DNA of 56,255 nucleotides from Aureimonas sp. Leaf427 (GTDB taxonomy: Bacteria; Pseudomonadota; Alphaproteobacteria; Rhizobiales; Rhizobiaceae): the NCBI RefSeq assembly GCF_001425485.1, contig NZ_LMQW01000010.1, forward strand, positions 1-56,255. Direction: 5' to 3'. Below, in pieces: positions 371 to 14,752 of the stretch. A model generated the notes under the pieces. It made no database searches, was not told the DNA's origin, and was given only the letters and a program-made list of their open reading frames with translations. The position numbers and the translations under genes were made by a program. How positions within the stretch are numbered: the stretch's first letter is position 1; the number at the start of each line of letters is the position of its first letter.

Positions 371-1329
371 TGATCGGCGAAGACGGCGAGGATGACGACG
401 AGACCGGAGGCGACATACTGCCAGAAGGAGGGGACGTTCATCAGCGTCAGCCCGTTCTGCAATCCGCCGAGCGTCAGAGCGCCGACGAGCGAGCCGAGCG
501 GATTTCCGACGCCGCCGAAGAGGCTGGCGCCGCCGATCACAGCCGAGCCGATAGCCTGGAGCTCGAAGCCATTACCGCCGATCGGCTCGGCTGCACCGAT
601 GCGTGCGATCAGGATGAAGCCGGCGATGCTGGAGAGAACGCCGGACAGCGTGTAGACCGTGATCTTCACCTGCTCGATCTTGACGCCAGAGAGCTTGGCG
701 GCTTCCTCGTTGCCGCCGATGGCGACGATCTGTTCGCCGAGCGCGGTGTATCGGATCAGGAAAAAGGCCAGTGCCGCGATGACGATCGCGAAGATCACCG
801 GCGTCGGCACGTCGAGGACGCGGCCGGCGAAGATCGAACGAAACGCCCGAGGTAGGCCGTAGATCGGCTGGCCGTCGACGTAGATCAGCGCCATGCCGCG
901 ATAGATGCTGAGCGTGCCGAGCGTGACGATGAAGTCGGGCAGGCGCAGCTTGGCGATGAGAATGCCGTTGACGAGGCCGCAGACGAGACCGACCAGCAGC
1001 CCTGCCCCAATGCCGGCCGCGACGCCGTGGGACATCATGTCGGCGGCCACCATCGAGGACAGGCCGACCACCGAACCGACCGAGAGGTCGATGCCACGCG
1101 TCATGATGACGAGTGTCATGCCGACCGCAATCACCGCGTTGATCGAGGACTGCAGCATGATGTCGACGAGGTTTGACACCTGGTAGAAGGTGCTGTTGAG
1201 GACGGAGAACACTAGGAAGAGCGCGACGCAGCCGATCGCCACGCTCGCCTTGCGCAAAGTGTCGCCGCGGTTCGAGGCTCGTGCGATGCGGTCGCTGTCC
1301 GCCGCGGGGGTTTCGATCGACGGTGTCAC
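349..1329 (-). CDS. CUT2-type sugar ABC transporter permease (RbsC-like)
   Basis: This is a 326-residue integral membrane protein of the BPD_transp_2 family. The hydrophobic segments begin at about residue 30, and the conserved MTRGIDLSVGS motif near residue 80 and FIVTLGTLSIYRG near 145 are hallmarks of ribose/galactose-class permeases. It would form the inner-membrane channel, probably as a homodimer, with the double ATPase encoded just upstream (4-base overlap, 1326-1329) and the binding protein at 2868-3902. Gene order binding protein-ATPase-permease on one strand is normal for CUT2 importers. The substrate is not evident; a pentose, hexose or polyol is likely from the family and from the downstream lactonase-like fragment. 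Confidence 0.93.
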   Translation of the reverse strand: MTPSIETPAADSDRIARASNRGDTLRKASVAIGCVALFLVFSVLNSTFYQVSNLVDIMLQSSINAVIAVGMTLVIMTRGIDLSVGSVVGLSSMVAADMMSHGVAAGIGAGLLVGLVCGLVNGILIAKLRLPDFIVTLGTLSIYRGMALIYVDGQPIYGLPRAFRSIFAGRVLDVPTPVIFAIVIAALAFFLIRYTALGEQIVAIGGNEEAAKLSGVKIEQVKITVYTLSGVLSSIAGFILIARIGAAEPIGGNGFELQAIGSAVIGGASLFGGVGNPLGSLVGALTLGGLQNGLTLMNVPSFWQYVASGLVVILAVFADQWTRKRR

Positions 1330-2861
1330 GGGCTATCCTTCCCCGCGGCCAGCGCCATCAGCTGCGCCTCGGTCAGTTTGTTGTCGTTTTCGACCAGATG
1401 CTCGAGACGCCCCTCGCGAACGACGCCGATGCGGTGGCAGATGAGAAGAAGTTCCGGCAACTCGGACGAGACGACGAGAAGCGCTGCCCCATCGCCCGCC
1501 AGCCGGCGCATCAGCGCATAGATCTCGGCCTTGGCGCCGACGTCGATGCCGCGCGTCGGCTCATCGAAGAGGAAAACGCGGGCGCCCGTGGCAAGCCAGC
1601 GGGCGATCACGACCTTCTGCTGATTGCCGCCGGACAGATTGCGCATCTCGGCCGTCGTGGATCCAGGACGAATACGCATGTCTGCAATGTAGCCTCGGAT
1701 AGCGTTTCGGCGCTCGCTTGCGCGCAGAACGCCGGTGGGCGCGTAGCGCCTGTGGTTTCCGAGGCCGAAATTCTGCTCGACGCTCATCATCGAAACGATG
1801 GCCTGCCCGCGCCGATCCTCGGGAATCAGCGCGATTCCGGCCGCCATGGCATCGCGTGGGCTCCTCGGCATCGCAGCGTCGGCCCCGACGCACATGGCTC
1901 CGCCCGTCGGCGGATCGACGCCGAAGACGGCGCGCAGGATCGCCGAGCGACCGGAGCCGACGAGCCCGGACAGCCCGACGATCTCGCCCGCCTTCACGGC
2001 GAGATCGACATCCCGAACCCGCGATGTCGAGAGCTTGTCGAGCGTCAGAAGCGCGGGAGCCTGGATCTGCGCAGGCTTGTCTGCGCCGAGTTCGCGGGAG
2101 AGTTCGCGCCCGGCGATCAGTTCGTTCAACTGTGCCTCGGAGTAATCGCCGATCGGTCCAGACGCTACGACATCGCCGTCCCGCAGGACGGTGACCCGGT
2201 CGGCGATCGCCCGGATTTCCGCCATGCGGTGGGAAATGTAGACGATCGCCTTTCCCGCCACCTTCAGCCGGCGGATAACGGAGAAGAGATTGTCCTGTTC
2301 GAGCGGGGTCAGGCTGGATGTCGGCTCGTCGAAGGCGATGATCCGGCCGCCGCGCGAGAGCGTCCGACTGATTTCCACGAGCTGCCGGTCGGCCATGCCG
2401 AGGCGCTCCACCAGCGTGTCCACATCGAGATGGGGTGCAAGGTCGTCGAGGATCGCGCGCGCCTGTCGGCGCAGCGCCTCGCGCGGTACGATACGAAGAC
2501 CCCTGGTGCGGCCGAGGAAGATGTTCTGCGCGACGTCGAGCTGAGGAACGAGGCTCAGTTCTTGACTGACGAGGCCGATGCCCATGGCGAGCGCCGAGCG
2601 CGGACCGTCGATGCGCACGGGTCCGACAAAGTCGAGCGCGATGCGCCCGGCATCGGGCTGGACGATGCCGAACATGACCTTCATCAGCGTCGACTTGCCC
2701 GCGCCGTTCTCGCCGAGAAGAGCGTGGACCTCACCGGTTCTCAGCGTGAGATCGACACCCTTCAAGGCTCGCACGCCCGCAAAGCTTTTCGCGATGCCCG
2801 TCATAACGAGGGCCGGAGGTCGGGCGCCTCTGCCCTCCGGGCTCGAAGCAAGGCTCGTCAT
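1326..2861 (-). CDS. CUT2-type sugar ABC transporter ATP-binding protein (RbsA/MglA-like)
   Basis: The 511-residue protein contains two fused nucleotide-binding domains, as usual for this class. Domain 1 has Walker A GENGAGKST at residues 50-58 and Walker B ending IIAFDEPTSSLT. Domain 2 has the degenerate Walker A typical of RbsA (GLVGSGRSA), an intact LSGGNQQKV signature and a Walker B with DEPTRGIDVGAK. It energises the permease encoded downstream. The start ATG 2859-2861 is six bases from the end of the binding-protein gene, so all three genes are probably co-transcribed. Compare the second CUT2 ATPase at 7457-9085, whose domain-2 Walker B differs at the catalytic glutamate. Confidence 0.95.
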   Translation of the reverse strand: MTSLASSPEGRGARPPALVMTGIAKSFAGVRALKGVDLTLRTGEVHALLGENGAGKSTLMKVMFGIVQPDAGRIALDFVGPVRIDGPRSALAMGIGLVSQELSLVPQLDVAQNIFLGRTRGLRIVPREALRRQARAILDDLAPHLDVDTLVERLGMADRQLVEISRTLSRGGRIIAFDEPTSSLTPLEQDNLFSVIRRLKVAGKAIVYISHRMAEIRAIADRVTVLRDGDVVASGPIGDYSEAQLNELIAGRELSRELGADKPAQIQAPALLTLDKLSTSRVRDVDLAVKAGEIVGLSGLVGSGRSAILRAVFGVDPPTGGAMCVGADAAMPRSPRDAMAAGIALIPEDRRGQAIVSMMSVEQNFGLGNHRRYAPTGVLRASERRNAIRGYIADMRIRPGSTTAEMRNLSGGNQQKVVIARWLATGARVFLFDEPTRGIDVGAKAEIYALMRRLAGDGAALLVVSSELPELLLICHRIGVVREGRLEHLVENDNKLTEAQLMALAAGKDSP

Positions 2862-2867
2862 GGAGCC

Positions 2868-3902
2868 TCACTTCACCTTCGGATCGGGAAAGTCCGCGAC
2901 GTTGTCCTTCGTCAACGTGGCCTGCGGCGACACGATCCAGGCCGGGATCGCCTGGCAGTCGAGCAGACGAAGCGCCATCTGGACGCCGATCTGACCTTCC
3001 TCGTAGGGGAATTCGGCGACCGTAGCCCGCATCTCGCCGGCGCCGACGGAGCGCTTGGCCTCGCGGATGCCGTCGGTTCCGACGACCGCGACCTTGTCGA
3101 GCCCGCTCGACTGAGAGACGGCCTCGACCACGCCGAGCGCCATGCCATCGTTGTTGGCGTAGACGCCGACGAGATCGGGGGTCTGGCGCAGGATGTTGGC
3201 CGTGGCATTCATCGCGGTCAGCCGGTCCCAGTTGCCCGGCTGACTGGCGACGAGCTCGAACTTCGGATTTTTGGCGAGCTCTTCCTTGAAGCCCTGGATG
3301 CGCATCCGCGCATTCGGCGAACCGGCCGCGCCTTCGATCTGGGCGACCTTGCCGCCGTCCGGATAAAGTGTCGAGAACAGCGCCGCGGCCTTAGCGCCGA
3401 TGGCGACCTGATCGGTGCCAACATAGGTGCTGGCACCCTCGGTCCGCGCGTCGTCGACGATGATGGTCGGAATGTTGGCGACCCGCGCGGCCTCGATCAC
3501 CGGCACGAGGTTGGAATCCGACTGCGGCGACAGCAACAGCGCGTCGGGGTTTTGCGAGAGGACGGTCTGCGCAAGGTTCAGTTGCTCGATCATCGAGGAC
3601 TCGTCCTTGGCAGCCTGGACGTCCACGGTGATCCCATACTTGGCGCCCTCGTCCTTGATGCCAGCGGCGACGTCCTGCCAGAATTCGTTGATCAGCGTTT
3701 TCGTCACATAGGCAAAGCGCAGATCCTTCTTCTTCGGCGCCGGTACCGTGCCAAATTCCGCCTCGACGGCGGCGGATTCGATCCGGTCTGCCTTTGCCGT
3801 CGGATAGGCCGAGCAGCTTTCCTGCGCATGGGTCACCGAAGGGCCCATCGATAGCGCGAGCGCCGTCGTGGCAACGAGACCGTTGCGAATTCGTCCGAGC
3901 AT
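2868..3902 (-). CDS. Sugar ABC transporter periplasmic substrate-binding protein
   Basis: The 344-residue protein starts with a Sec-type signal peptide (basic MLGRIRNG, hydrophobic core, likely cleavage after THA near residue 26). The rest is a Peripla_BP_4 (RbsB-like) fold: the first strand is LRFAYVTKTL, followed by the family blocks DALLLSPQSD, IIVDDAR and YVGTDQ, then the interdomain region and the VYANNDGMALG block. It captures the ligand in the periplasm and delivers it to the permease. It is the promoter-proximal gene of the operon and diverges from a LysR-type regulator, the natural candidate controller. There is a single ordinary Sec signal, unlike the Tat-exported binding proteins at 5992 and 11550. 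Confidence 0.93.
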   Translation of the reverse strand: MLGRIRNGLVATTALALSMGPSVTHAQESCSAYPTAKADRIESAAVEAEFGTVPAPKKKDLRFAYVTKTLINEFWQDVAAGIKDEGAKYGITVDVQAAKDESSMIEQLNLAQTVLSQNPDALLLSPQSDSNLVPVIEAARVANIPTIIVDDARTEGASTYVGTDQVAIGAKAAALFSTLYPDGGKVAQIEGAAGSPNARMRIQGFKEELAKNPKFELVASQPGNWDRLTAMNATANILRQTPDLVGVYANNDGMALGVVEAVSQSSGLDKVAVVGTDGIREAKRSVGAGEMRATVAEFPYEEGQIGVQMALRLLDCQAIPAWIVSPQATLTKDNVADFPDPKVK

Positions 3903-4231
3903 GTCATCCTCCCATCGTGGCGCGGACCTCCATCCGACGCCGGTCGCTCTGCCCTATCGGGATTTCGGGTCCGTTGAACTGCCTCGAAGGCCGTTTCGCC
4001 AACCGCAAACGTTGGCGGATACGGCAGAACGTCTTTCGGCAGTGCCGGACCTCGTTTTATACCGACCTCGTCGCCATCGATCGCGATCAACGGGTCGGCG
4101 ACGAGAGGTTAGGACAGGCTATTCGTTAGAAGCAATTTAGAAGCTTTGCTCGATCTGTTAGTTTGGCTAAATGGTTTTATCCCTCGCGCGATCGGTCTGG
4201 TCGCAACTGTCTCCTGCCCATTCACGAGCTG
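3903..4231. promoter_or_regulatory. Divergent intergenic region between importer operon and LysR gene
   Basis: These 329 bases separate two divergent genes and must carry both promoters. The portion nearest the LysR gene (4110-4175) is clearly more AT-rich than its surroundings and contains short repeats of the type TTAGAAGC (around 4126 and 4137). LysR proteins normally bind such AT-rich T-N11-A sites between their own gene and a divergent target. No convincing -35/-10 pair was assigned by eye. Small open frames here look like chance frames in GC-rich DNA. Confidence 0.45.
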
Positions 4232-5131
4232 ATGATGCAGTTACCCGTTAAAGCGATCTGGGTGTTTCATGCCGTCGCGAAAGCGGGGAGCGTTTCGCGC
4301 GCGGCCGAAGAATTGGGCGTCACGCCTTCAGCTGTCAGCCAGCAGATCCAAGCACTCGAAGTGCAACTCGGTCTTTCCCTGATGCATAAGGCGGGCCGTC
4401 GCGTCGTCCTCACGGAGGCCGGCGAGCGCTACTTCGCGACGATCGACGACGAGATCGGCCGGATCGTTGAGGCGACCTCGGCGATCAGGGGTTATCGCTC
4501 TGTGACATCCCTTACAGTTCGGGCGACGCCGACACTGTCCAACAAATGGCTCTTGCCGCGGCTCCAGACGTTCCTCGATCTCTATCCCGACATCGAGATC
4601 CGGATCGACGGGACGAACGAACCGACCGACTTCAATCGCGAGATCGTCGATCTCGAGATCCGCCACGGAGACGGGCGGTGGCCCGGCCTCTTCGTCGAGG
4701 GGATGGGGGAGGAAACCTTCGTGCCCGCCTGCGCGCCGAGCCTTGCCGCATCCGGCAGCCTTTCGCCCGAGGATCTCCCGAGCTACCGGCTTATCCATTC
4801 CGTGAAGTCGCAGGCGCAGTGGGGCCGGTGGTTTGCCGAAGCCGGCGTCCGGCCAACGCAACGCTGGCGCCGCCTCCTCTTCGATCGCAGCCATATGGCC
4901 ATCGACGCTGCCTCCGGCGGCATGGGCATCGCCCTTGAAAGCACGACGATGATGGAGCGGGAATTTGCGAACGGCACCCTCCTCTGTCCCGTCGCGAAAC
5001 CACCCCGGATCGGCATCGTGACACAGTGGATCGTCTGCCCGCGCGACCACCTTCGCCACAAGAAAGTTCAGGCCTTCCTCGAATGGCTTCGAACGAACCG
5101 CGAGTTTTCGAGAACGGTGCAGTCCAAGTGA
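4232..5131 (+). CDS. LysR-family transcriptional regulator (GcvA-like)
   Basis: With the start at ATG 4232 (or the adjacent ATG 4235) the product is 299 residues, a normal LysR length. An upstream in-frame start at 4163 would add 23 residues with no family similarity. The N-terminal winged helix-turn-helix reads VFHAVAKAGSVSRAAEELGV followed by TPSAVSQQIQALE. The substrate-binding domain follows, with the GcvA/AmpR-type block WLLPRLQTF and the segment FNREIVDLEIRHGDG. It faces away from the CUT2 operon at 349-3902 and stands upstream of the second transport cluster, so it could control either or both. The inducer is unknown. Confidence 0.9.
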   Translation: MMQLPVKAIWVFHAVAKAGSVSRAAEELGVTPSAVSQQIQALEVQLGLSLMHKAGRRVVLTEAGERYFATIDDEIGRIVEATSAIRGYRSVTSLTVRATPTLSNKWLLPRLQTFLDLYPDIEIRIDGTNEPTDFNREIVDLEIRHGDGRWPGLFVEGMGEETFVPACAPSLAASGSLSPEDLPSYRLIHSVKSQAQWGRWFAEAGVRPTQRWRRLLFDRSHMAIDAASGGMGIALESTTMMEREFANGTLLCPVAKPPRIGIVTQWIVCPRDHLRHKKVQAFLEWLRTNREFSRTVQSK

Positions 5132-5482
5132 TTCGATCGGGTTCTCGTTACATGAACGCTCGGAAGCCGTAAATTTTATTATCATATTCTAGTACAAGCA
5201 ATCAATTTTACAAGAAAAATCGTTGATGACCTTCTCAATTTGAATTGACATTCCTTCAAAAGGACAGAAGTTAGTACTTCAAGTCTCAGAAATTTTTCTT
5301 CCATCGAGGAGCTGTTCGTCTAGCTTGGAGCTATCTCTGGCGAAATTGTTTTGGATAGGGCGCTGCTACCTTATCCTGATCTCGGGCAGCTTTCAGCTCT
5401 ATTATAGGGGTGAGCCCAGCGGACGGTTGCCGTACGGCGATAACCCGGCGCAGGGCTGAAAACGCCAGTTCCTGACCCGACG

Positions 5483-5542
5483 GCTCAACGCCACCTTCGC
5501 CTTGAAGGTGAGGCTGTGATTGCGCCTGGGTCTCTTCGTCAT
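5483..5542 (-). pseudogene. IS3-family transposase OrfA remnant (N-terminus)
   Basis: Reading leftward from ATG 5540-5542 the frame encodes MTKRPRRNHSLTFKAKVAL, which closely resembles the first ~19 residues of OrfA proteins of IS3-family elements (typically MTKRPRRNHSPAFKAKVAL). After this the similarity ends abruptly and the frame becomes unrelated sequence, so most of the gene is missing. This is a scar, not an active element, and marks past IS activity on the left side of the monooxygenase cluster. Confidence 0.7.
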
Positions 5543-5650
5543 CGTTTCTTCTGATCGCAGCCATCCTGGCCGCCTTGAGGCAGACAATCCACTCAGCCCA
5601 CTGTGCAGATTCGCGGAGCCACCTCTTTCGACCCTGACGGGGCGCAAGTT

Positions 5651-5670
5651 AGGAAACTGGAAAGTTTCCT
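5651..5670. promoter_or_regulatory. Perfect inverted repeat, TetR-operator-like
   Basis: AGGAAACT and AGTTTCCT are perfect reverse complements separated by GGAA. The overall shape, a GGAAAC half-site dyad of about 20 bp, resembles operators bound by TetR-family dimers. No TetR gene is in the window. It could be a relic of a lost regulator-target region, an IS end or a hairpin. It lies about 320 bases upstream of the binding-protein gene at 5992. Confidence 0.4.
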
Positions 5671-5770
5671 CGTTGATCGGCGCGGCTGGTTCGGGTGAAG
5701 GCCATTCAGCCCAACACATCGGCGGCACACTCGCATTCCCCGGAATGAAACTGCACTTCAGCCTCGCAAA

Positions 5771-5822
5771 TTGGAACTTTTGTCCTCGATAATGTCTATT
5801 ATCATTATAGATTATATATACC
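5771..5822 (+). promoter_or_regulatory. Putative promoter/operator of the monooxygenase-transport cluster
   Basis: An AT-rich block upstream of the 5992 gene contains the inverted repeat GATAAT-GTCT-ATTATC at 5788-5803. A -35-like TTGTCC (5780-5785) and a -10-like ATTATA (5804-5809) are 18 bases apart and flank the repeat, so a repressor bound there would occlude the promoter. In such GC-rich DNA this run is the most promoter-like sequence in the gap. Assignment is by eye only. A transcript from here would have a leader of about 170 bases. Confidence 0.35.
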
Positions 5823-5991
5823 AGCAACGTGCGCTGGTCAGCGAGCCGTTGCATCGGAAAGTGCGCCCAATTTTCGCGCGTGCGGATCGAGAAAGGCGGC
5901 CAGACGAACGCCCTCAATATTCTACGAATCCGCTCCGGAGTCGCTTTTCGCCAACCGGTTACACCCACTTTCCTCATCTAAGCAGGCATCC

Positions 5992-7332
5992 ATGGCATCC
6001 CGCTCCCGGTTTCCCGTCTTCCCCGATTTTTCGAACAAAGCGATGATCGACCGCCATCTCGATCGCCTGGATACGACCGGCGTTTCGCGGCGCGACTTCC
6101 TAGCGCTCGCCTCGGCCGGCGCCGCAGCGTCCGCCTTCGCCGCGACGATGGGCCTGCCCTCGGTCGCCGTCGCAGCGCCGACCGGCAAGATCGCCTATCT
6201 CGCCTGGAGTGCCAGCACAGAGTACAACCAACTCGTCAGCAAGGGCGCGGCGGCGGCGGCCAAGGATCTGGGCTTTAACTATGCGCTGCTCGACGGCCAG
6301 ATCGATGCCGGCCGCCAGTTGAACCAGTTCGAAGAACTGACAACCACGCAGGCGACCGGCGGTTTCTTCAACATTCTCGACGGCAGTGCCCTCAAGCGCG
6401 CCTCCCAATTTGCGGAAACTTCCAGGGTCTATTTCGGCGCTGTCTGGGACAGCCTTCCCTGGTTCACGCCCTTCGACGGCGGCGACTATTACACGCTCTA
6501 CGCCAATCCCGAGGAAGACGCCGCCCATCGCGGCGTGACGGAGGCTCTCCTGACGGCCGTGACCGAAAAGTTCGGCGGCGGCAAGGTGGTCGCTCTCACC
6601 GGAACGCCGGGCAACTGGTGCGAGACCGCGCGCAATCGCGGGCGCGACGAGGCCTTCGCCAAGCATCCGGGGACGCAGCTCGTCGATCAGTTGCCGGGCA
6701 AATGGCTGCGCGAGGAATCGCTGCGCGCCACCGAGGATCTTCTGACACGCAACCACGACATCGTCGGCATCATCACCCAGAACGACGACGAAGCGCAGGG
6801 CGCCATCGCCGCCCTGCGCAATGCCGGCCTGCGGGCGGGCGAGGACGTTCTCGTCGCAGGCGCCGACGGCACGTCGCTGGGCGCGGAGGCGATCCGCAAG
6901 GGTCAGCAGGTCGCAACCAGCGGCAACAGCCCGGTCTTCACCGGAGCGCTCTTCGTCTCGCGCATCTACGACGTTACCCATGGCTGGGTGCCGAGTGTGC
7001 CGGAGCGCCAGCTCTACTGGCGGCCGACGATCGTCACCAAGGACAATGTCGATGCCTATGTCGCCCGTTACGTGAACGACGACGGGGTCGAGCCCTTCGA
7101 TTACAGGCGCATGTCGAAGGTGCTGCATCCCGACGACTGGGACCCGCAGGCCGACGTCTATCCCATCGACATCGAGCAGCACTGGCGCGGCTACGAGAAG
7201 CCCGCCGGCTGGGCGCCGCCCGCAGCCTATGCCGAGGCGAAGGCTGCGGGCGAGTTCGAACGAGTGAAGGCCGAATACGCCGACCACTACAAAATCAAGT
7301 TCGACGGCCCCGGTCCGAACGCCCGGAGCTGA
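5992..7332 (+). CDS. Tat-exported sugar-type ABC substrate-binding protein (first copy)
   Basis: The 446-residue protein has a twin-arginine signal: TTGVSRRDFLALA with the arginines at 33-34, then a hydrophobic stretch and an A-x-A-like cleavage site near VAVAAP. The mature part belongs to the Peripla_BP_4/RbsB superfamily (KIAYLAWSAS opening, IVGIITQNDDEAQG ligand-domain block, VLVAGADGT). It is long for the family because of a C-terminal extension rich in Trp and Tyr (DDWDPQADVYPIDIEQHW). A close paralogue lies at 11550-12887 with the same signal motif and the same tail. It heads the operon and should feed the ATPase/permease pair just downstream. Tat export suggests folding before export. 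The ligand is unknown. Confidence 0.9.
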   Translation: MASRSRFPVFPDFSNKAMIDRHLDRLDTTGVSRRDFLALASAGAAASAFAATMGLPSVAVAAPTGKIAYLAWSASTEYNQLVSKGAAAAAKDLGFNYALLDGQIDAGRQLNQFEELTTTQATGGFFNILDGSALKRASQFAETSRVYFGAVWDSLPWFTPFDGGDYYTLYANPEEDAAHRGVTEALLTAVTEKFGGGKVVALTGTPGNWCETARNRGRDEAFAKHPGTQLVDQLPGKWLREESLRATEDLLTRNHDIVGIITQNDDEAQGAIAALRNAGLRAGEDVLVAGADGTSLGAEAIRKGQQVATSGNSPVFTGALFVSRIYDVTHGWVPSVPERQLYWRPTIVTKDNVDAYVARYVNDDGVEPFDYRRMSKVLHPDDWDPQADVYPIDIEQHWRGYEKPAGWAPPAAYAEAKAAGEFERVKAEYADHYKIKFDGPGPNARS

Positions 7333-7338
7333 ACGTTC

Positions 7339-7366
7339 GCGGCCGTTGGCAGAATGCGACGGCCGC
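7339..7366 (+). terminator. Intercistronic hairpin after binding-protein gene
   Basis: GCGGCCGT (7339-7346) and ACGGCCGC (7359-7366) form a perfect 8-bp stem with a 12-base loop, starting seven bases after the stop codon. No U-run follows. Such hairpins between a first-gene binding protein and its transporter often protect the upstream mRNA or attenuate read-through, giving more binding protein than membrane components. A similar arrangement occurs at 21514-21542. Confidence 0.5.
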
Positions 7367-7456
7367 GTCGCTCGACAGGCAAGGCCGCAGGCTTTGCCAA
7401 GGCTGTCGCTCAGCCTGCCGATCTCTGCCTGGCTCCAGAAAAGGTCCGATTCGATC

Positions 7457-9085
7457 ATGACCGTCCACGCGACGACGATCGCCGCAGTCGGCGCCCCCGC
7501 GACAAGTCCGCCTCTGTTTCAGGCCGAGGGCCTGAGGAAGGCCTATAGCGACACCGTCGTGCTCGACGGCGTCGGCTTCGAGGTTCCCGCCCATTCCGTC
7601 GTCACCTTTGTCGGCGAGAACGGGGCGGGGAAATCGACGCTCTTCAACATTCTCAGCGGCATCACCGGCGCCGATGCGGGCACGATGCGGCTCGCCGGCG
7701 AGGACTATCGCCCGAAGACCTATGGCTCAGCCGTCAGAAGCGGTGTCTCGCGGGTGTTCCAGGAACAGTCGCTGATCGCCAATGTGCCGGTCTACGAGAA
7801 TCTCCTTCTCGGCGAGGAGCACCGCTTCACGCGCGCCGGGCAACTTCTTGACAAGCGCTCGATGATCGCAGCGGCCGAACGGATCGTCGAGGAGGCCGGC
7901 ATCGACATCGACGTGCGCCGGCGCACCGGCGACTACGACTTCTCCAAGCGCCAGTCGATCGAGATCGCCCGCGCCTGCCTTGCACCCACGCATCTCCTCG
8001 GCATGGAGCGTCCCTTCATCCTGCTCGACGAGCCGACTTCGGCCCTGGACCGCCGCGATGAGGAGGCCTTCTTCCGTCTTGTCGCCAAGATCAAGCGGCG
8101 CGGCTCGCTGCTCTTCGTCTCGCACCGGCTGAGCGAAGTGCTGGCTTTGTCCGACCTGATTTACGTCCTGAAGGACGGCCAGCTCGTGGCAAAGCTCGAC
8201 CCTGCCACCGCTGACGAGCGTACGCTCCATGGACTAATGGTCGGGCGCCAGCGTGCCACCGACTATTATCATGAAAAGCGCCAGCGTGCCGTTGCGCAGG
8301 AACCTGTCCGCCTCGACGTGCGCGGCCTCGCAGAGCCCGGCGCCTTCGCCGACATCTCCCTTTCGGTCCGAGCGGGCGAGATCGTCGGCATCGGCGGCCT
8401 CCTCGATTCCGGCAAGAGCGCGCTCGGCAAGGCCATTGCCGGCGTGGAGCGCCCGGCTTCCGGCACGGTGGCCCTGGCGGGTGGCGAGCACCGCGCGCCC
8501 GCCATCGGCCGCTTCGTGAAGCGGGGCCTTGGCTACGTGCCGGCAGAGCGGCTGGCGGAGGGCATGATCGCCGCCTTCAGCGTGGCCTGGAACATCTCGC
8601 TGGCCAGCGGCGGCGACCGCCAGACGAACCGCTTCGGACTCTGGAAACGACGCCGGGAGACCGAGACCGCGGAACGCTACGGGCGCGAACTCGCCATCCG
8701 GTCCGCGACGCCCGGCCTTCGCTGCTCCCGCCTGTCGGGCGGCAACCAGCAGAAGGTCGTTCTGGCGCGCTGGCTCAGCCGCGACCCCGAAGTCCTGGTG
8801 CTGGACAATCCGACGCGCGGCGTCGATGCCGGCGCGAAGGAGGAGATCTATCGGTTGATCCGCGACCTCGCCGATCGCGGCGTCGCCGTTCTTCTGATCA
8901 CCGACGAGCTTCTCGAACTGATCGGCCTCTCCAACCGTATTCTCATCCTGCAGCGCGGGCACATCGTGGCGGAGATTCCCTCCCCCTCGACGGCCAAGCC
9001 AGGCGAGCGCGAACTCGTGGCCTGGATGCTGCCGCAGAGCGGCGACCCTTCCGCAGTGTCACCCCACCTGGAAACGAACCCATGA
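7457..9085 (+). CDS. CUT2-type ABC transporter ATP-binding protein
   Basis: The 542-residue protein has two fused ATPase domains. The start at ATG 7457 is chosen because family similarity begins shortly after it; a longer in-frame start at 7346 adds 37 unconserved residues. Domain 1 has Walker A GENGAGKST at residues 53-61 and Walker B with LLDEPTSALD, but its signature position reads DFSKRQSIEIARA, degenerate as in RbsA proteins. Domain 2 keeps GGLLDSGKSAL and an intact LSGGNQQKV. Its Walker B reads VLDNPTRGVD, with Asn in place of the catalytic Glu seen in the other CUT2 ATPase here. This fits one active and one inactive composite ATP site. The end overlaps the permease start by four bases. 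Confidence 0.93.
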   Translation: MTVHATTIAAVGAPATSPPLFQAEGLRKAYSDTVVLDGVGFEVPAHSVVTFVGENGAGKSTLFNILSGITGADAGTMRLAGEDYRPKTYGSAVRSGVSRVFQEQSLIANVPVYENLLLGEEHRFTRAGQLLDKRSMIAAAERIVEEAGIDIDVRRRTGDYDFSKRQSIEIARACLAPTHLLGMERPFILLDEPTSALDRRDEEAFFRLVAKIKRRGSLLFVSHRLSEVLALSDLIYVLKDGQLVAKLDPATADERTLHGLMVGRQRATDYYHEKRQRAVAQEPVRLDVRGLAEPGAFADISLSVRAGEIVGIGGLLDSGKSALGKAIAGVERPASGTVALAGGEHRAPAIGRFVKRGLGYVPAERLAEGMIAAFSVAWNISLASGGDRQTNRFGLWKRRRETETAERYGRELAIRSATPGLRCSRLSGGNQQKVVLARWLSRDPEVLVLDNPTRGVDAGAKEEIYRLIRDLADRGVAVLLITDELLELIGLSNRILILQRGHIVAEIPSPSTAKPGERELVAWMLPQSGDPSAVSPHLETNP

Positions 9086-10074
9086 CCCTCGCCGCGCCCA
9101 CGCGACCGGCATCGGCCCCGCCGCGCCTCGACCTTACCTCGATCGACAAGAGCCTGTGGTTTCCGGTCGGGGTCGTTCTCTTTCTCTTCGTCTTCTTCTC
9201 GCTTGCCACCGATTCCTTCGCCACGCTGCGCAACTTCACCGCCGTCAGCGGGCAAGCCGGAACGCTGCTCATCGCCTGCCTCGGCGGCACCTTCGTCGTT
9301 CTCATGGGCAGCATCGATCTCTCCATCGGCGCCATGGTGCTTCTGGCGGGCGCGACGAGCGTGACGCTCCTCAACGGGACCTCGCTCGGCTTTGCGGTCC
9401 TGCCGGCGGTGGCGCTGATCGGCGGGCTGCTCGGCCTCGTCAACGGCACGATCTACACGCTCGGCCGCATCCCCTCCTTCATCGTGACGCTCGGCACGCT
9501 CTCGGTCTTCAGCGGCCTTGCGCTGATGGTGCTCGACGGACGCGCCATCCAGTTCGATCTGGCGGGCTTCGAGAGCATCGCCATCGGGCAGTTGATCCCG
9601 CGCCTTCCCAACATCGCCCTCTGTGCCCTCGCTGCCTGGGCTGTGGTGGTGTTCATCGCGGTCCGCACGCGCTTCGGCCGCTATATGTACCTGATCGGCG
9701 GCGGAGAGACCGTGGCGCGCACCGCCGGCATCCCGGTCGAGCGCTACAAGATCTACGCCTTCGTCCTGTCGGGGGTTTTGGCCGGCATCGGGGCGGTTCT
9801 GTCGGTTGCCCGGCTCGGCGCGGCGGGGCCCTCGCTTGGCTCCGACCTCCTCCTCAACAGCCTTGCCGCCATCGTCGTCGGCGGAACCTCGCTGTCGGGT
9901 GGCATCGGCGGCCCGCACCGAACGCTGATCGGCGTCCTCATCATCGCGATCCTCGACAACGGGCTGAACCTGATGGGCGTCTCGCAATACTCGCAGATGA
10001 TCGTGAAGGGGCTCGTCGTCATCGCCGCCGTCCTCGTCAGCCGCGACCCCTCCCGCACCGCCGTCGTCAAATAG
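9082..10074 (+). CDS. CUT2-type ABC transporter permease
   Basis: The 330-residue membrane protein is of the BPD_transp_2 family. MGSIDLSIGAMV near residue 75 and FIVTLGTLSVFSG near residue 135 are the standard RbsC-class motifs, and the hydrophobic segments are spread over the whole length. The start overlaps the upstream ATPase stop (ATGA), a sign of translational coupling. It should serve both Tat-exported binding proteins (5992 and 11550), because the window holds only one ATPase/permease pair in this cluster. The gene for the flavin monooxygenase begins only 10 bases downstream. Confidence 0.93.
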   Translation: MTLAAPTRPASAPPRLDLTSIDKSLWFPVGVVLFLFVFFSLATDSFATLRNFTAVSGQAGTLLIACLGGTFVVLMGSIDLSIGAMVLLAGATSVTLLNGTSLGFAVLPAVALIGGLLGLVNGTIYTLGRIPSFIVTLGTLSVFSGLALMVLDGRAIQFDLAGFESIAIGQLIPRLPNIALCALAAWAVVVFIAVRTRFGRYMYLIGGGETVARTAGIPVERYKIYAFVLSGVLAGIGAVLSVARLGAAGPSLGSDLLLNSLAAIVVGGTSLSGGIGGPHRTLIGVLIIAILDNGLNLMGVSQYSQMIVKGLVVIAAVLVSRDPSRTAVVK

Positions 10075-10084
10075 GCAGGAGCCC

Positions 10085-11476
10085 ATGACCAAGCGATTGA
10101 TCTTCAACGGCTTCTCGATGAATGCCGTCTCCCATGTCTATCACGGTCTGTGGCGCCATCCGCAGACGCTGCAGACGAAATTCAACGATCTCGATACCTG
10201 GGTCTCCCTGGTGAAGCTTCTCGAGAAGGGCAAGTTCGACACGTTCTTCGTCGCCGACATCCTCGGCGTCGACGCCGCCTACAAGGGAAGCTGGGACACC
10301 TACGTCAAAGAGGCCGTGCAAATCCCGATCAACGATTCCGGCGTTCTCGTCGGCGCGCTGATCCAGTCGAGCGAGCATATCGGCCTGACGCTGACGAGCT
10401 CGATCCTGCAGGAGCACCCCTTCAACTTCGCCCGCAAGCTCTCGACGCTGGACCACCTCAGCAAGGGGCGCGTCGGCTGGAACATCGTCACCAGCGTCAG
10501 CCACAACGCCGCGCAGAACTTCGGCTTCGACCGTATCGTGCCGCATGACGAGCGCTACCGCTGGGCGGAGGAATATGTCGACGTCGTCTACAAGCTCTGG
10601 GAAGGCTCCTGGGACGAGGATGCGGTGATCGACGACAAGGCAGGCAACATCTACGCCGACCCGGCCAAGATCCACCGAATCCATCACCACGGCCAGCGCT
10701 ACAAGGTGCTGGGTCCGCATCTCAGCCAGCCCTCGCCGCAGCGTACGCCCGTTCTCTTCCAGGCCGGGTCCTCGACGGCGGGGCGGGGCTTCGCCGCCCG
10801 GCACGCCGAAGGCACGTTCATCGCCGCCGTCAATCCGCAAGGCGCCAGACGGCAGATCGACGAGACGCGCGCCCTGGTGCGCGCCGCAGGGCGCAATGCC
10901 GACGACCTCCTCTTCGTGCAGGGCATGTCCTTCGTCGTCGGCGGCACGGAGGAAGAGGCGGCCGCCAAGGCCCGGGATCTTGCCGCCGACATCAGCGTCG
11001 ACGGGCTGCTTGCCCATATCAGCCGCGATCTCGGCATCGATCTCGGCCTTCTCGATCCCGATCGGCCGGTGGACGAGCTGTCGATCGAAGGCGTCCAGGG
11101 CATCGTGCGCGCCTTCGAGGAGGGCAATCCCGGCCGGCGCGCCACCGTTGCCGATCTCGGCCGGGCCTATGCGCTGAGCAGCCAGGTGGTGGGAACGCCC
11201 GAGACGATCGCCGACCAGCTCGAGATCTGGCAGTCGGCCGGGATCGACGGCATCAACCTCATCTACCACACGACCCCCGGCTCCTTCGTCGATTTCATCG
11301 AAAACGTCACGCCGGTGCTCCAAGCCCGCGGTCTCGCGCAGACCGACTATGCGGAAGGGACCTTCCGCGAAAAGCTCTTCGCCGGCCGGGGCGCACGCCT
11401 GCTCGAGCGCCATCCGGCCGCATCCTATCGTGGCGCCTTCGTCGGCAACCTCGCCGATCGGCTTCCGGCGGCCTGA
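10085..11476 (+). CDS. LLM-class FMN-dependent monooxygenase (NtaA/SnaA/DszA family)
   Basis: This 463-residue protein is a class C two-component flavin monooxygenase using reduced FMN supplied by a separate reductase. The opening IFNGFSMNAVSH leads into GLWRHPQ, with KFDTFFVADILG near residue 50, SKGRVGWNIVTS near 130 and AAQNFGFD just after; these blocks are typical of nitrilotriacetate, dibenzothiophene-sulfone and pristinamycin monooxygenases rather than of shorter SsuD/bacterial luciferase types. It lies between the permease and the second binding protein, so it probably oxidises an imported compound, for example by C-S or C-N cleavage. No flavin reductase gene is seen in the window. The family is clear; the substrate is not. 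Confidence 0.9.
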   Translation: MTKRLIFNGFSMNAVSHVYHGLWRHPQTLQTKFNDLDTWVSLVKLLEKGKFDTFFVADILGVDAAYKGSWDTYVKEAVQIPINDSGVLVGALIQSSEHIGLTLTSSILQEHPFNFARKLSTLDHLSKGRVGWNIVTSVSHNAAQNFGFDRIVPHDERYRWAEEYVDVVYKLWEGSWDEDAVIDDKAGNIYADPAKIHRIHHHGQRYKVLGPHLSQPSPQRTPVLFQAGSSTAGRGFAARHAEGTFIAAVNPQGARRQIDETRALVRAAGRNADDLLFVQGMSFVVGGTEEEAAAKARDLAADISVDGLLAHISRDLGIDLGLLDPDRPVDELSIEGVQGIVRAFEEGNPGRRATVADLGRAYALSSQVVGTPETIADQLEIWQSAGIDGINLIYHTTPGSFVDFIENVTPVLQARGLAQTDYAEGTFREKLFAGRGARLLERHPAASYRGAFVGNLADRLPAA

Positions 11477-11513
11477 CGCTGGTCTCCCTCACACCGCCCC
11501 AGATCGCCAGAAG

Positions 11514-11539
11514 AGCCGTTGCACGGCTGCCGAGGAGTT
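11514..11539 (+). promoter_or_regulatory. Small hairpin and strong ribosome-binding site before second binding protein
   Basis: AGCCGT (11514-11519) and ACGGCT (11523-11528) form a short 6-bp hairpin. It is followed by GAGGAG at 11532-11537, a strong Shine-Dalgarno sequence 12 bases before ATG 11550. The purine-rich site fixes the start of the downstream binding-protein gene at 11550 rather than at the in-frame upstream codon at 11349, which overlaps the monooxygenase gene. Confidence 0.45.
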
Positions 11540-11549
11540 ACCCCGCATC

Positions 11550-12887
11550 ATGGTCAGCATCGATCCCCGCCGCTTCGGCGATCTTACTGCGCGTAGCACC
11601 ATAGACGAGCATCTCGGCCGCATGGACACGACCGGCGTTTCGCGCCGCGACTTCCTCGCCTTCGCCTCGGCCAGCCTCGCGGCGACCGCGGCGGCCGGGG
11701 TTCTCGGCCGCACTTCGGTCGCCGTCGCCGCGCCGTCCGGCAAGCTTGCCTACCTTGCCTGGACGAGCCGGGTCGAGTTCATGGCGCAGGCGAGCCGTGC
11801 GACGGCGGATGCCGCCAAGAGCTTCGGCCTCGGCTACAGCTATCTCGACGGGCAGGTGGACAGCGCGCGCCAGCTCAACCAGGCAGAGGAGCAGATCAAT
11901 TCAGGCTCGGGCGCCATCATCCTGCACGCGCCGGACGGCAGCGCGGTGCGCCGCATCGCCGAATATGCCGAACAGAACAAGGTCTATTTCTCCAACGTCT
12001 GGGCGACGTTGCCCTGGTACACCCCGTTCGACGCCAGTGAATACTACACGCTCTATGCGGTGCCGGAGGAGTTCACCGCCCATCGCGGCGTGACGACGGA
12101 GCTGCTCAAGGCGGTGACCGAGCGCTTCGGCGGCGGCAAGATCCTGGGCGTCACCGGCGTTCCCGGCTTCTCAACCGACAATGTGCGCAGCCGCGGGCGC
12201 GACGCCGCCTTCGCCGACTTTCCCAAGACCGAACTCGTCGGACAGCTTCCCGGCCTCTTCAACCGGGAGGATTCGCTGAAGGCGACGCAGGACCTCCTCA
12301 GCCGCTATCCCGACATCGTCGGCATCGTGGCCCAGAACGACGACGTGGCGCAGGGTGTCGTCGCGGCCCTGCGCGCGGCCGGGCTGAAGCCGGGCGAGGA
12401 CGTTCTCGTCGTGGGCGCGGACGGAACCAGCGAAGGCGCTCGGGCGATCAAGAGCGGCCAGCAGCTCGCCACCAGCGCCAATTCGCCGGCGTTCCAGGCA
12501 GGACTCTTCACGGCGCGCCTCTACGACGTCCTAAACGGCTGGAAGCCCCGCGCCGCCGAGCGCATGCTGCACTGGCGCTCGATCATCACGACCTCGGCCA
12601 ATGTCGACACCTATCTCCAACGCTATGTCGACAATGGCGACGTCCCCCCCTTCGACTATCGCCGGATGTCGAAGGTCGCCCATCCGGATGACTGGGACCC
12701 GCAGGGCGAAGTCTTCCCGCTCGACATCGATCTTGAATGGGAGGGGCTGCCCAAGCCGAGCGGCTGGACTTATCCGGAGGCCTATCTCAAGGCGAAGACA
12801 GGGGGCGAATGGGAGGCAGTCCGCGAGGAGTATCGGGCCCACTACAAGGTGCCCTTCTTCGGCCCTTCACCTTTCCGCAGCCTTTGA
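11550..12887 (+). CDS. Tat-exported sugar-type ABC substrate-binding protein (second copy)
   Basis: The 445-residue protein is a clear paralogue of the product of 5992-7332. The two share the N-terminal MDTTGVSRRDFLAFAS-type twin-arginine signal (arginines 32-33 here), the mature start KLAYLAWTS, the NDD block (IVGIVAQNDDVAQG) and the C-terminal DDWDPQGEVFPLDI tail. ATG 11550 was chosen because it follows a good Shine-Dalgarno and gives an N-terminus that aligns with the first copy. It sits between the two monooxygenase genes, not beside the transporter, suggesting duplication within the cluster and possible division of ligand specificity (parent and partly oxidised compound, or two chain variants). 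The substrate is unknown. Confidence 0.9.
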   Translation: MVSIDPRRFGDLTARSTIDEHLGRMDTTGVSRRDFLAFASASLAATAAAGVLGRTSVAVAAPSGKLAYLAWTSRVEFMAQASRATADAAKSFGLGYSYLDGQVDSARQLNQAEEQINSGSGAIILHAPDGSAVRRIAEYAEQNKVYFSNVWATLPWYTPFDASEYYTLYAVPEEFTAHRGVTTELLKAVTERFGGGKILGVTGVPGFSTDNVRSRGRDAAFADFPKTELVGQLPGLFNREDSLKATQDLLSRYPDIVGIVAQNDDVAQGVVAALRAAGLKPGEDVLVVGADGTSEGARAIKSGQQLATSANSPAFQAGLFTARLYDVLNGWKPRAAERMLHWRSIITTSANVDTYLQRYVDNGDVPPFDYRRMSKVAHPDDWDPQGEVFPLDIDLEWEGLPKPSGWTYPEAYLKAKTGGEWEAVREEYRAHYKVPFFGPSPFRSL

Positions 12888-12900
12888 AAGACGCACCCCA

Positions 12901-14157
12901 ATGACCATTGCAGGACCCATCATCGCCACCCGGCCGAAGACGCAGGTCGATCGCGCCTGGGGGTCGGGCCCAAGTGCGCGCTATGAGGAGATCGCGGCGC
13001 GCTTTCGCCCGCTTTTCGCCCGCATCCAGGAAGGAGTCATCGACCGGGAGGTCCACCGGCGCCTTCCGCACGAGGAGATCGGCTGGCTGAAACAGGCCGG
13101 CTTCGGCGCGCTGCGCGTGCCGCAGGCGCTAGGCGGCCTCGGCGTCACGCTGCCTGAGCTTTTCAACCTTCTGATCGAGCTGGCGGAGGCCGACTCCAAT
13201 CTCGTTCAGGCGCTTCGAGCCCATTTCGGCTTTACCGAAGACGTGCTGAACACCAAGATTCCGGGACGCCGCGAACTGTGGGCGAGCCGGATCGCGGCCG
13301 GCGAGACGGTCGGCAGCGCCTGGACGGAACTCGATTCGACGCTCGTCGCTTTTTCCACCACCGTCACGCCCAATGACGGTGGATGGCGGCTGACGGGTTC
13401 GAAATTCTACACGACCGGCTCGCTCTTCGCCGATTGGGTTCAAGTCGGCTGCGTCGATGCGGCGGGAGAGCCAGTCTCGGCCATTGTCTCGCGCCATGCA
13501 CCCGGCGTCGAAGTCGTCGACGACTGGGACGGAATGGGACAGCGGCTGACGGCGAGCGGTACGACGCGTTTTGCCGAGGCGCCGGTCGCGAGCGCGGACG
13601 TCTACCCGGAGGAGGACGGCTTTACGTATTCCGCGGCCTTCTACCAACTCGTTCAACTTGCGACGATCGCCGGCATCGGGCGGGCGGCGGCGAACGACGT
13701 CGCGGCCGCCGTGGCCAAGCGCCAGCGAACCTACACACATGCCGCCGCCACGCGATCGAGTCAGGACCCGCAGGTGCTGCAGGTGGTCGGGCGAATCCGC
13801 GCCGCAGCCTACGCCTCCGGCGCGATCGTGCTGAGAGCGGCCGAGGCGCTCCAGCGGGTTCACGATGCGAGGCTGGCCGACGACGCCGAGGCTGAGGAGC
13901 AGGCGAACGCGATCGCCGAGTTGGAAGCCGCACAAGCGCAGACCGTCGTGACCGATCTCATCCTCAATGCCACCACGATCCTCTTCGATGCGCTCGGCGC
14001 CTCGGCGACGCTGCGCACCGTCGGTCTCGACCGTCATTGGCGCAACGCCCGCACCCTCTCGTCACACAATCCTCGCATCTACAAGGATCGGATCGTCGGC
14101 GACTTCGCGGTGAACGGCACCCTGCCACCCTATCAGTGGCGCGTAGGAACAAACTGA
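12901..14157 (+). CDS. Acyl-CoA-dehydrogenase-fold monooxygenase (DszC/SfnB-like)
   Basis: The 418-residue protein has the acyl-CoA dehydrogenase fold: an N-terminal helical domain (GFGALRVPQALGGLGVT), a middle beta domain (GSAWTELDSTL, then WRLTGSKFYTTGSLFADW) and a C-terminal helical domain ending SSHNPRIYKDRIVGDF. The final segment RNARTLSSHNP is typical of flavin-dependent sulfoxidases and N-hydroxylases (DszC, SfnB, XiaF type) rather than of true dehydrogenases, which carry a catalytic Glu. It would use reduced flavin and oxygen. It starts 13 bases after the second binding protein and ends the cluster. Pairing with an NtaA/DszA-type enzyme recalls DszC and DszA, acting in sequence on organosulfur substrates; that link is inference. 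Confidence 0.85.
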   Translation: MTIAGPIIATRPKTQVDRAWGSGPSARYEEIAARFRPLFARIQEGVIDREVHRRLPHEEIGWLKQAGFGALRVPQALGGLGVTLPELFNLLIELAEADSNLVQALRAHFGFTEDVLNTKIPGRRELWASRIAAGETVGSAWTELDSTLVAFSTTVTPNDGGWRLTGSKFYTTGSLFADWVQVGCVDAAGEPVSAIVSRHAPGVEVVDDWDGMGQRLTASGTTRFAEAPVASADVYPEEDGFTYSAAFYQLVQLATIAGIGRAAANDVAAAVAKRQRTYTHAAATRSSQDPQVLQVVGRIRAAAYASGAIVLRAAEALQRVHDARLADDAEAEEQANAIAELEAAQAQTVVTDLILNATTILFDALGASATLRTVGLDRHWRNARTLSSHNPRIYKDRIVGDFAVNGTLPPYQWRVGTN

Positions 14158-14253: not shown

Positions 14254-14531
14254 GGGTCAGGACTCATTGGTCAGAGCTAGAACAGAACGGTAGCTGCGAG
14301 GGTGATGGCGGAGAAGAAGACCGTCGGACACCGGTCGTAATGGGTGGCGACGCGTCGCCAGTCCTTCAGACGTCCGGACATGATCTCGATGCGGCTACGG
14401 CGCCTGTAGCGGCGCTTGTTGTATGCGACGGGGTCAATCCGCGATTTACGACCGGGAAGGCAAGCTTGGATGCCTCTCGTCTGCAAGGTATCTCTGAATC
14501 AGTCGGCGTCATAACCACGATCGCCGAGCAG
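14254..14531 (-). mobile_element. IS5-family element, truncated 3' part
   Basis: The segment starts with GGGTCAGGACTCATTG, resembling the terminal repeat of IS427-group IS5 elements, and carries the transposase C-terminal part on the minus strand. It stops abruptly at 14531, where the left end of an IS481-type element begins. The 5' half of the element is therefore missing, lost by insertion of or recombination with the second IS. It belongs to a different IS5 subgroup from the fragment at 1-93, judging by the C-terminal protein tails. Confidence 0.75.
14277..14531 (-). pseudogene. IS5-family transposase C-terminal remnant with internal stop
   Basis: The frame reads LLGDRGYDAD, then a TGA where the family has Trp (usual DADWFRD), then FRDTLQTRGIQACLPGR and the well-known block GRLKDWRRVATHYDRC, ending AATVLF at the stop 14277-14279. 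This is the conserved C-terminal part of IS427-like DDE transposases, with the catalytic Glu region (SRIEIMSGRLKDW) preserved. The internal stop and missing N-terminal half show it is dead. An ATG-initiated frame covers 14277-14486 but is only the tail. Confidence 0.85.

Positions 14532-14676: not shown

Positions 14677-14752
<76 letters not shown>

Follow-up and report, generated by a model that had tools for sequence, protein, structure and literature searches.

A CUT2-type importer clustered with two flavin monooxygenases in Aureimonas sp. Leaf427: a probable horizontally acquired organosulfur scavenging unit

In a 56,255-nucleotide stretch of Aureimonas sp. Leaf427 DNA (contig NZ_LMQW01000010.1, below called the window), six plus-strand genes at positions 5992-14157 encode a sugar-class (CUT2) ABC importer together with two flavin-dependent oxygenases, one a luciferase-like monooxygenase (LLM) and one with the acyl-CoA dehydrogenase (ACAD) fold. 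The best explanation for this gene set, to which we give a probability of about two in three on the basis of comparative sequence analysis, is that it is a horizontally acquired unit for scavenging organic sulfur compounds. All six reading frames are intact, and the Pfam and NCBIfam domains (two Peripla_BP_4, a double ABC_tran, BPD_transp_2, Bac_luciferase and acyl-CoA dehydrogenase domains) agree with the CUT2/LLM/ACAD run described in the initial annotation, except that its word 'fused' does not apply, as the genes form a cluster with no gene fusion. The transporter has the CUT2 complement of a Peripla_BP_4 binding protein, a one-chain ATPase with two nucleotide-binding domains and a BPD_transp_2 permease; to be corrected is the number of solute-binding proteins, since two (SBP1 and SBP2) would share the single ATPase and permease. 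The ATPase and permease genes share 4 bases, 10 bases lie between the permease stop and the LLM gene and 13 bases between the SBP2 and ACAD genes, and this tight spacing and overlap would fit one transcript. Scans of the region for promoters (2 sites vs 1.2 expected) and for terminators (2 sites vs 6.6 expected) gave no signal.

The association of transporter and LLM is found well beyond this genome. SBP1 has relatives at E <=1e-60 in 5 of the 397 genomes of an order-level sample, that of the window included, and at E 1e-30 in 12 of the 297 genomes of a family-level sample. When only the LLM was used as query (E 1e-165; matches of at least 62% identity), the same five order-level genomes were recovered, along with three of the 297 family-level genomes (the window's, G057 and G275). 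By their positions, all 12 LLM matches (eight in the order and four in the family sample, the window's own counted in each) lie inside CUT2 clusters, with scoring limited in each genome to 4 or 5 candidates from the first look. The only other LLM match in a class-level sample of 385 genomes (52% identity, E 2.5e-153) was the sole match to the query set in the 11.2 kb covered of a contig of 18.7 kb. A pattern scan of a named species-genome collection, based on an alignment of binding proteins, yielded 39 loci, among which 33 reach 52% identity or more. Gene order was compared in 36 loci, window included, two of which (L068 and L075) come from a single contig; left aside were L070 (a piece of the L066 contig, which shows the ATPase-permease-LLM order too), the 3-kb L087 and the more remote L093-L098. 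ATPase and permease are both present in 30 of the 36, and in 18 of these 30 the LLM gene directly follows the permease gene, with match ends 3 to 81 bases apart. Three more have an LLM elsewhere in view, upstream in L074, three genes further in L076 and on the opposite strand in L089. The 18 contiguous loci cover nine named families, from Rhizobiaceae to Erwiniaceae, and include close relatives (Labrys, Sinirhodobacter, Paracoccaceae) and some metagenome-assembled genomes (MAGs), so that they do not represent 18 independent events. Pairwise distances are correlated at 0.91 for ATPase and LLM and 0.80 for permease and LLM (each p 0.001, 1000 permutations), as compared with 0.79 for ATPase and permease, which as parts of one machine serve as a yardstick; these values are not corrected for host relatedness. 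The linkage of oxygenase and transporter is not due to chance. Indeed, the conserved-neighbourhood search that the initial annotation had named as its refuting test spoke against chance, and its idea that uptake and oxygenation form a single unit gains support from the order kept in 18 of the 30 loci. The gene set is rare among bacteria and has spread horizontally. A sister clade of the transporter, here called group B, was also found in MAGs labelled Myxococcota and Verrucomicrobiota, with no LLM of this kind in view.

Sulfur acquisition is the best reading for this gene set because genes for SfnG, SsuD, SsuE, Ssu/TauABC or O-acetylhomoserine sulfhydrylase stand in some of the related clusters. 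In the ACE_PRO31 relative (L037/L076), a single run comprises the genes for an O-acetylhomoserine sulfhydrylase (569.1 bits vs a cut-off of 495.1), an ACAD, an SBP2-class protein, the ATPase, the permease, SfnG (430.2 bits vs 382.95; its frame stops at position 291 of a 350-position profile), an AhpD-like protein, a second ACAD and an LLM, with TauABC genes divergent from it. In Kaistia terrae (L092, group B), SsuE- (36-37%), SfnG- (56% to the ACE_PRO31 SfnG), SsuC-, SsuA- (under cut-off), SsuB-, NtaA- and ACAD-like genes are divergent from an AhpD-SBP-ATPase-permease run. Geminicoccus (L071) carries two SsuD relatives with 58 and 63% identity to E. coli SsuD, one of them immediately ahead of a binding protein gene. 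In the Pantoea loci, a relative of SsuD (48-49%) is encoded together with SsuA-like genes on the opposite strand, about 3 kb ahead of the cluster. No sulfur marker is in view in most of the 36 loci. Together, these neighbours support the organosulfur class among the substrates that had been suggested for the window cluster. In Rhodobacter capsulatus, an ntaA gene beside ssuABC was 4968-fold upregulated on isethionate relative to sulfate under anaerobic conditions (PMC11423573). For Acinetobacter baylyi, another study (PMC13352529) describes three group D (ACAD-fold) enzymes that oxidise dimethyl sulfide (DMS) to dimethyl sulfoxide (DMSO) and DMSO to dimethyl sulfone (DMSO2), undetectable DMS oxidation by group C (LLM) enzymes, and a single FMN reductase for the whole pathway.

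The LLM belongs to the NtaA/DmoA family of FMN-dependent monooxygenases, as it passes the TIGR03860 cut-off of 279.7 bits with 486.6 bits, and it falls below the SsuD, SfnG and RutA cut-offs (64.8 vs 518.2 for the SsuD-type model). Among solved structures, HcbA1 (PDB 6lr1) ranks first with 551 bits, followed by LadA (427), DmoA (418) and riboflavin lyase (298), with the nitrilotriacetate (NTA)-type structure at 172 and the EDTA-type structure at 155 bits. A loosened dioxygen motif, derived from a pattern given in PMC8234197, had no match in the LLM but misses RutA too and is therefore uninformative, and a viral scan with the LLM as query found no relative. With HcbA1 as the top solved relative, ahead of LadA and DmoA, the cluster could instead serve to degrade a compound that bears a hydroxylated head group and is halogenated, otherwise xenobiotic or alkane-like, with the LLM acting like HcbA1 (oxidative dehalogenation) or like LadA, and a haloalkane dehalogenase gene does lie near the divergent CUT2 clusters of the plasmids pTi_GV3101 and pAtK84b. 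We consider this explanation unlikely, though the best placed among the alternatives: sulfur genes recur in the related clusters, ACADs with SfnB as nearest model and AhpD-like proteins accompany the cluster, and the pTi haloalkane dehalogenase as query gave 0 matches in the close loci. In Rhizobium leguminosarum, an LLM of a related branch (45% identity) adjoins MetNIQ genes and msuE, so an importer adjoining such an LLM is not new in kind. On an Agrobacterium plasmid, an LLM of 58% identity is encoded together with a flavin reductase (L139 3435-8952), with a methionine synthase gene and a DUF1852 gene a few genes off, which is possibly another sulfur link for this LLM branch.

In a tree of the binding proteins, SBP1 falls in class alpha (10 rows) and SBP2 in class gamma (18 rows), which stands beside group B, with class beta as a third class. 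Of the 21 LLM-bearing loci, 15 encode at least two binding proteins, whereas each of the nine group-B loci encodes one. An ACAD of the window type (at least 50% identity) is found within 3 kb of 11 of the 18 class-gamma proteins vs 0 of the 27 class-alpha and class-beta proteins (Fisher p 3e-6, with no correction for relatedness), and in two Ancylobacter contigs the SBP2-ACAD pair is located about 16 to 20 kb away from the transporter. The linkage of SBP2 and ACAD is real, and from it we infer that the two proteins may be functionally paired. The ACAD itself shows the pair of histidines expected of group D enzymes of the DszC/MsuC type: His108 is conserved in 26 of 26 and His389 in 24 of 24 aligned rows with letters there, and we take these residues to align with DszC His92 and His391. 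At the position of the other DszC histidine, which precedes the active-site histidine, 10 of the 11 window-type ACADs with a letter there have Leu, the window's own included, and one has Val. Five other genes of the Leaf427 genome pass the SfnB (TIGR04022) cut-off, and the window ACAD is 32-36% identical to them. A PF13454 (NAD_binding_9) flavoprotein, which could be an extra oxygenase or reductase, recurs beside SBP2-class genes (L063 1075-2535, L065 1121-2539, L073 2609-4135, L050 15700-17046 and L049 15204-16544), and relatives of it also occur in L071, in L089 and, at 31-34%, in the Ssu/SfnG region of the Leaf427 genome (L059).

The importer has the build of a sugar transporter, and among the NCBIfam models listed no sugar CUT2 equivalog (Rbs, Als, Ara, Xyl, YtfQRT and others) reached its cut-off. 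The best equivalog scores were 70.1 vs 337 for SBP1, 374.2 vs 689 for the ATPase and 178.6 vs 398 for the permease; AraG, YtfR and the xylose ATPase were the best models for the ATPase, with 0 of the 25 models listed above cut-off. SBP1 and SBP2 both carry the twin-arginine translocation (Tat) motif SRRDFL, whose twin arginines are invariant across 15 aligned proteins, both included. In 53 matches of SBP1 to solved structures, the best stretches all end by residue 365 of 446, and beyond this residue the aligned relatives keep many invariant residues; SBP1 is thus predicted to bear a C-terminal extension of about 80 residues. The stretch concerned, residues ~366-446 of SBP1 and the corresponding part of SBP2, falls outside the best stretches of the solved relatives. 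A structure model of SBP1 (mean pLDDT 75.8, 15-row alignment) best matches ribose-, allose- and other sugar-binding proteins and yields no detail of the pocket; pocket positions were read from the sequence alignment to E. coli RbsB and not from this model.

For 43 of 55 binding proteins we tallied twelve positions that we take to be the ribose contacts of RbsB. R141, N190 and D215 are kept in 43 of 43 and Q235 is N in 43 of 43, while positions 13/16/64/164 read T/N/N/W in class alpha, N/N/N/W in class beta (where the first two are gaps in one row) and V/M/H/F in class gamma; near Asp89/Arg90 in the N-domain, where the window proteins carry an insertion, the alignment is unsure. These class-specific differences would suit ligands of two kinds. 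R141, N190 and D215 occur as well in the four distant relatives tallied and in a binding protein of the ordinary rbs-like kind encoded in the window; they are hence a mark of the protein class rather than of the ligand and say less about a hydroxylated ligand. The sugar- or polyol-linked ligand proposed earlier is therefore not borne out by the three retained sugar-contacting positions, and our best guess is a small hydroxylated or sugar-like organosulfur compound. The same three residues could hold a polyol chain, which would allow riboflavin or another flavin to be imported via its ribityl chain in order to supply the oxygenases rather than as their substrate. The linked oxygenases do come from families that use reduced flavin, and riboflavin lyase is related to the LLM (298 bits). 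We nevertheless regard flavin import as very improbable, since the presence of multiple binding proteins in most LLM-bearing loci (15 of 21), their class-specific pockets and the selective SBP2-ACAD linkage fit substrates better than a common cofactor, and the LLM is far closer to HcbA1, LadA and DmoA than to riboflavin lyase.

An aminopolycarboxylate (NTA/EDTA-like) or other N-oxygenation pathway, which the initial annotation had entertained, would accord with the NtaA name of the LLM subfamily, TIGR03860. This idea is weakened to the point of being remote by scores of 172 and 155 bits to NTA- and EDTA-type structures vs 551, 427 and 418 to HcbA1, LadA and DmoA, and by identified neighbours in several related clusters that are sulfur genes. 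That oxygenases and transporter are functionally unrelated neighbours can be dismissed almost entirely, for although sequence derived from an insertion sequence on the right flank shows mobile DNA to have been active here, ATPase-permease-LLM runs are contiguous in 18 loci of at least nine named families and all matches of the LLM-only searches are in CUT2 clusters.

A number of observations nonetheless count against an organosulfur scavenging unit. In the window cluster itself, no curated sulfur gene is above cut-off, the neighbouring regulator is a GcvA-like LysR protein and not CysB or Cbl, and the ACAD misses the cut-off of its nearest NCBIfam model, SfnB (TIGR04022), with 278.7 vs 430.9 bits. 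TIGR03860 also takes in enzymes that do not act on sulfur (HcbA1, LadA). The linkages have exceptions as well: a window-type ACAD is not in view for 7 of the 18 SBP2-class proteins, the Rhizobiaceae genome G010, a group-B member, has the transporter (52% identical binding protein) and not the LLM, and of nine distant loci (L039-L047; 29-38% to SBP1) only L041 has linked oxygenases. Nine of the 30 loci with both transporter genes are without such an LLM (L082-L086, L088 and L090-L092), and these make up a single binding-protein clade, group B (SH-aLRT support 99, quick tree). One of them, L084, ends 314 bases past the permease match, which puts any next gene out of view; in another, L086, the genes after the cluster encode a binding protein of the SBP_bac_1 type and other transporter-like products. 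Lastly, growth of R. capsulatus on isethionate persisted in anaerobic cultures upon deletion of ntaA (PMC11423573).

The six genes fill 5992-14157 with no room between them, and as had been noted from the outset none of them encodes a flavin reductase (FMN reductases included), a sulfatase or a glycosidase. The suggestion that the oxygenases borrow a reductase is supported by an SsuE-like gene on contig 23 of the same genome (C23:332959-333447), which scores 101.4 bits and is below the cut-off of 164.05, a value reached by 1 of 14 control genomes. Around it lie SsuA-, SsuC- and SsuB-like genes, a gene for an SsuD with 64% identity to that of E. coli and an SfnG-like gene (49%), and an SfnB above cut-off follows about 5.5 kb beyond this region. 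Given this gene and the precedent of one reductase for a whole pathway in PMC13352529, reductase borrowing is plausible, and FMNH2 most likely would come from the SsuE-like protein of contig 23.

We propose that the organosulfur scavenging unit would work as follows. The two Tat-type ribose-class binding proteins, presumably exported by the Tat route, would capture related organic sulfur compounds with their different pockets and deliver them to the common ATPase and permease. In the cytoplasm, to judge by the chemistry of its family, the ACAD may put oxygen onto sulfur, turning a sulfide into a sulfoxide or sulfone, or a sulfinate into a sulfonate, and the LLM may cleave the C-S bond to give sulfite or a smaller oxidised sulfur compound for assimilation. 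SBP2 would be the partner of the ACAD, and SBP1 and the class-beta proteins those of the LLM, with FMNH2 supplied from outside the cluster. A broader and more tentative proposal, which we hold as a working idea with the odds somewhat against it, is that a branch of the CUT2 importers was recruited for organosulfur compounds: it would combine an ATPase/permease core, usually with an LLM gene next to it, with several paralogous Tat-type binding proteins, each of which would supply a flavin oxygenase of its own with a different organosulfur compound of hydroxylated type, such that SBP2 feeds the ACAD and alpha and beta proteins feed LLMs.

The cluster was most likely acquired beside a tRNA-Ala gene (Table 1). 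This tRNA gene, identical throughout, and the YggT gene behind it occur together in the 4 congener loci examined, a set that leaves aside a fifth congener of 65% completeness, and the six genes were not seen in the 4 to 12 kb across the tRNA-Ala gene in these four loci; the absence of the cluster from the same site in congeners points to acquisition. Searches of three congeners gave no SBP1 or LLM match under the limits used. Between the cluster and the tRNA gene is a transposase remnant that has related copies at other places in the genome, and G+C is low (56.8%) at 4001-6000. A minus-strand frame at 5402-5977 had been considered as another transposase remnant and was dropped, as it drew nothing from Pfam. 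To the left of the cluster, the window contains a second, ordinary rbs/als-like CUT2 operon of permease, ATPase and binding protein genes (349-3902, minus strand), and the GcvA-like LysR gene (4163-5131) is situated between this operon and the six genes. In Pantoea rodasii, a second, divergent CUT2 set (L080 17891-21286; 39-41% identical) is present behind the main cluster and another ACAD gene, and is perhaps a case of repeated recruitment.

Table 1. The six-gene cluster and the features at its right-hand border (positions in the window).
Feature	Position	Strand	Assignment	Evidence
SBP1	5992..7332	+	Predicted Tat-type (SRRDFL) ribose-class periplasmic binding protein, class alpha, C-terminal extension	Peripla_BP_4 108.2 bits; class from tree
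ATPase	7457..9085	+	CUT2-type ABC ATPase, two nucleotide-binding domains	Two ABC_tran stretches
Permease	9082..10074	+	CUT2-type permease	BPD_transp_2 126.4 bits
LLM	10085..11476	+	NtaA/DmoA-family FMNH2-dependent monooxygenase, HcbA1/LadA/DmoA branch; proposed to cleave C-S (or C-X)	TIGR03860 486.6 bits; PDB 6lr1 551 bits
SBP2	11550..12887	+	Second Tat-type ribose-class binding protein, class gamma, with a different pocket lining	Peripla_BP_4 116.9 bits
ACAD	12901..14157	+	ACAD-fold (group D) flavin oxygenase, SfnB/DszC/MsuC-like; proposed S-oxygenase paired with SBP2	TIGR04022 278.7 bits; matches to PDB 8cda, TdsC, MsuC and DszC
Transposase remnant	14280..14486	-	DDE_Tnp_1_2; right edge of cluster	PF13586 29.5 bits vs cut-off 29.2
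tRNA-Ala(cgc)	14677..14752	-	Junction to conserved chromosome	ARAGORN

If the organosulfur reading is true, a CUT2 importer tied to sulfur oxygenases widens the accepted substrate range of CUT2 transporters and offers candidate binding proteins for direct screening. Likewise, a recruited CUT2 branch, if real, would amount to a modular platform for uptake and oxygenation and would constitute a class of importers for sulfones, sulfoxides or thio-sugars; dimethyl sulfone transporters had yet to be characterised according to a review-level statement of 2021 (PMC8234197). The selective SBP2-ACAD linkage also suggests that the oxygenase may guide the search for each binding protein's ligand, an idea that extends to the divergent CUT2 genes of agrobacterial plasmids. 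Two such importers, on pTi_GV3101 (L027 7833-15427) and on pAtK84b (L028 7941-14025), have binding proteins with 34-36% identity to SBP1, the former set being beside ACAD and AhpD-like genes and the latter beside NtaA-like genes; one pTi_GV3101 ACAD is 85% identical to an ACAD in a Sinorhizobium BG8 cluster. We found no description of the substrate of these importers, and searches of an open-access library aimed at the gene set, its enzymes or its pTiC58 counterpart turned up no title or opening of an abstract on the gene set.

The ssu, msu and sfn clusters (SsuEADCB, MsuEDC, SfnFG, and Dms1-3 of A. baylyi) resemble the window cluster in that group C and group D two-component oxygenases act in series and one reductase can serve several of them (PMC13352529, PMC8234197). 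Unlike them, the window cluster has a CUT2 importer with two binding proteins in place of an SsuABC-type importer, lacks an FMN reductase gene, and encodes an LLM that is DmoA/HcbA1-like, not SsuD/SfnG-like. The sulfoquinovose pathway known as sulfo-ASMO (sulfo-SMO) likewise joins a sulfosugar ABC importer to a C-S-cleaving FMNH2-dependent LLM, and its reductase is sometimes encoded outside the cluster (PMC9594981). This pathway differs by its LLM, a close SsuD homologue, and by a dehydroglucose reductase, neither of which is found in the window cluster; no SsuD-like sulfoquinovose monooxygenase is present there. The sulfo-ASMO importer is of the CUT1 type. HcbA1 (a hexachlorobenzene oxygenase), LadA (alkane) and DmoA (dimethyl sulfide), the nearest solved relatives of the LLM, act on hydrophobic molecules, and to our knowledge none of them is encoded behind a CUT2 permease. 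The ACAD shares its fold and two histidines with DszC/TdsC, MsuC and SfnB, but differs from DszC by the Leu in place of the other histidine and from SfnB by its score below cut-off. With the ribose, allose and arabinose importers of the CUT2 class, the transporter has in common its domain make-up and fold, as reflected in the matches of the SBP1 model, while the Tat signal, the C-terminal extension, the often several binding proteins per transporter and scores below every sugar equivalog cut-off among the models listed set it apart. The importer class is unusual for organosulfur uptake: the pairing of an organosulfur importer with two-component flavin oxygenases is already known, and the novelty here would lie in an importer of the CUT2 class that often has several binding proteins.

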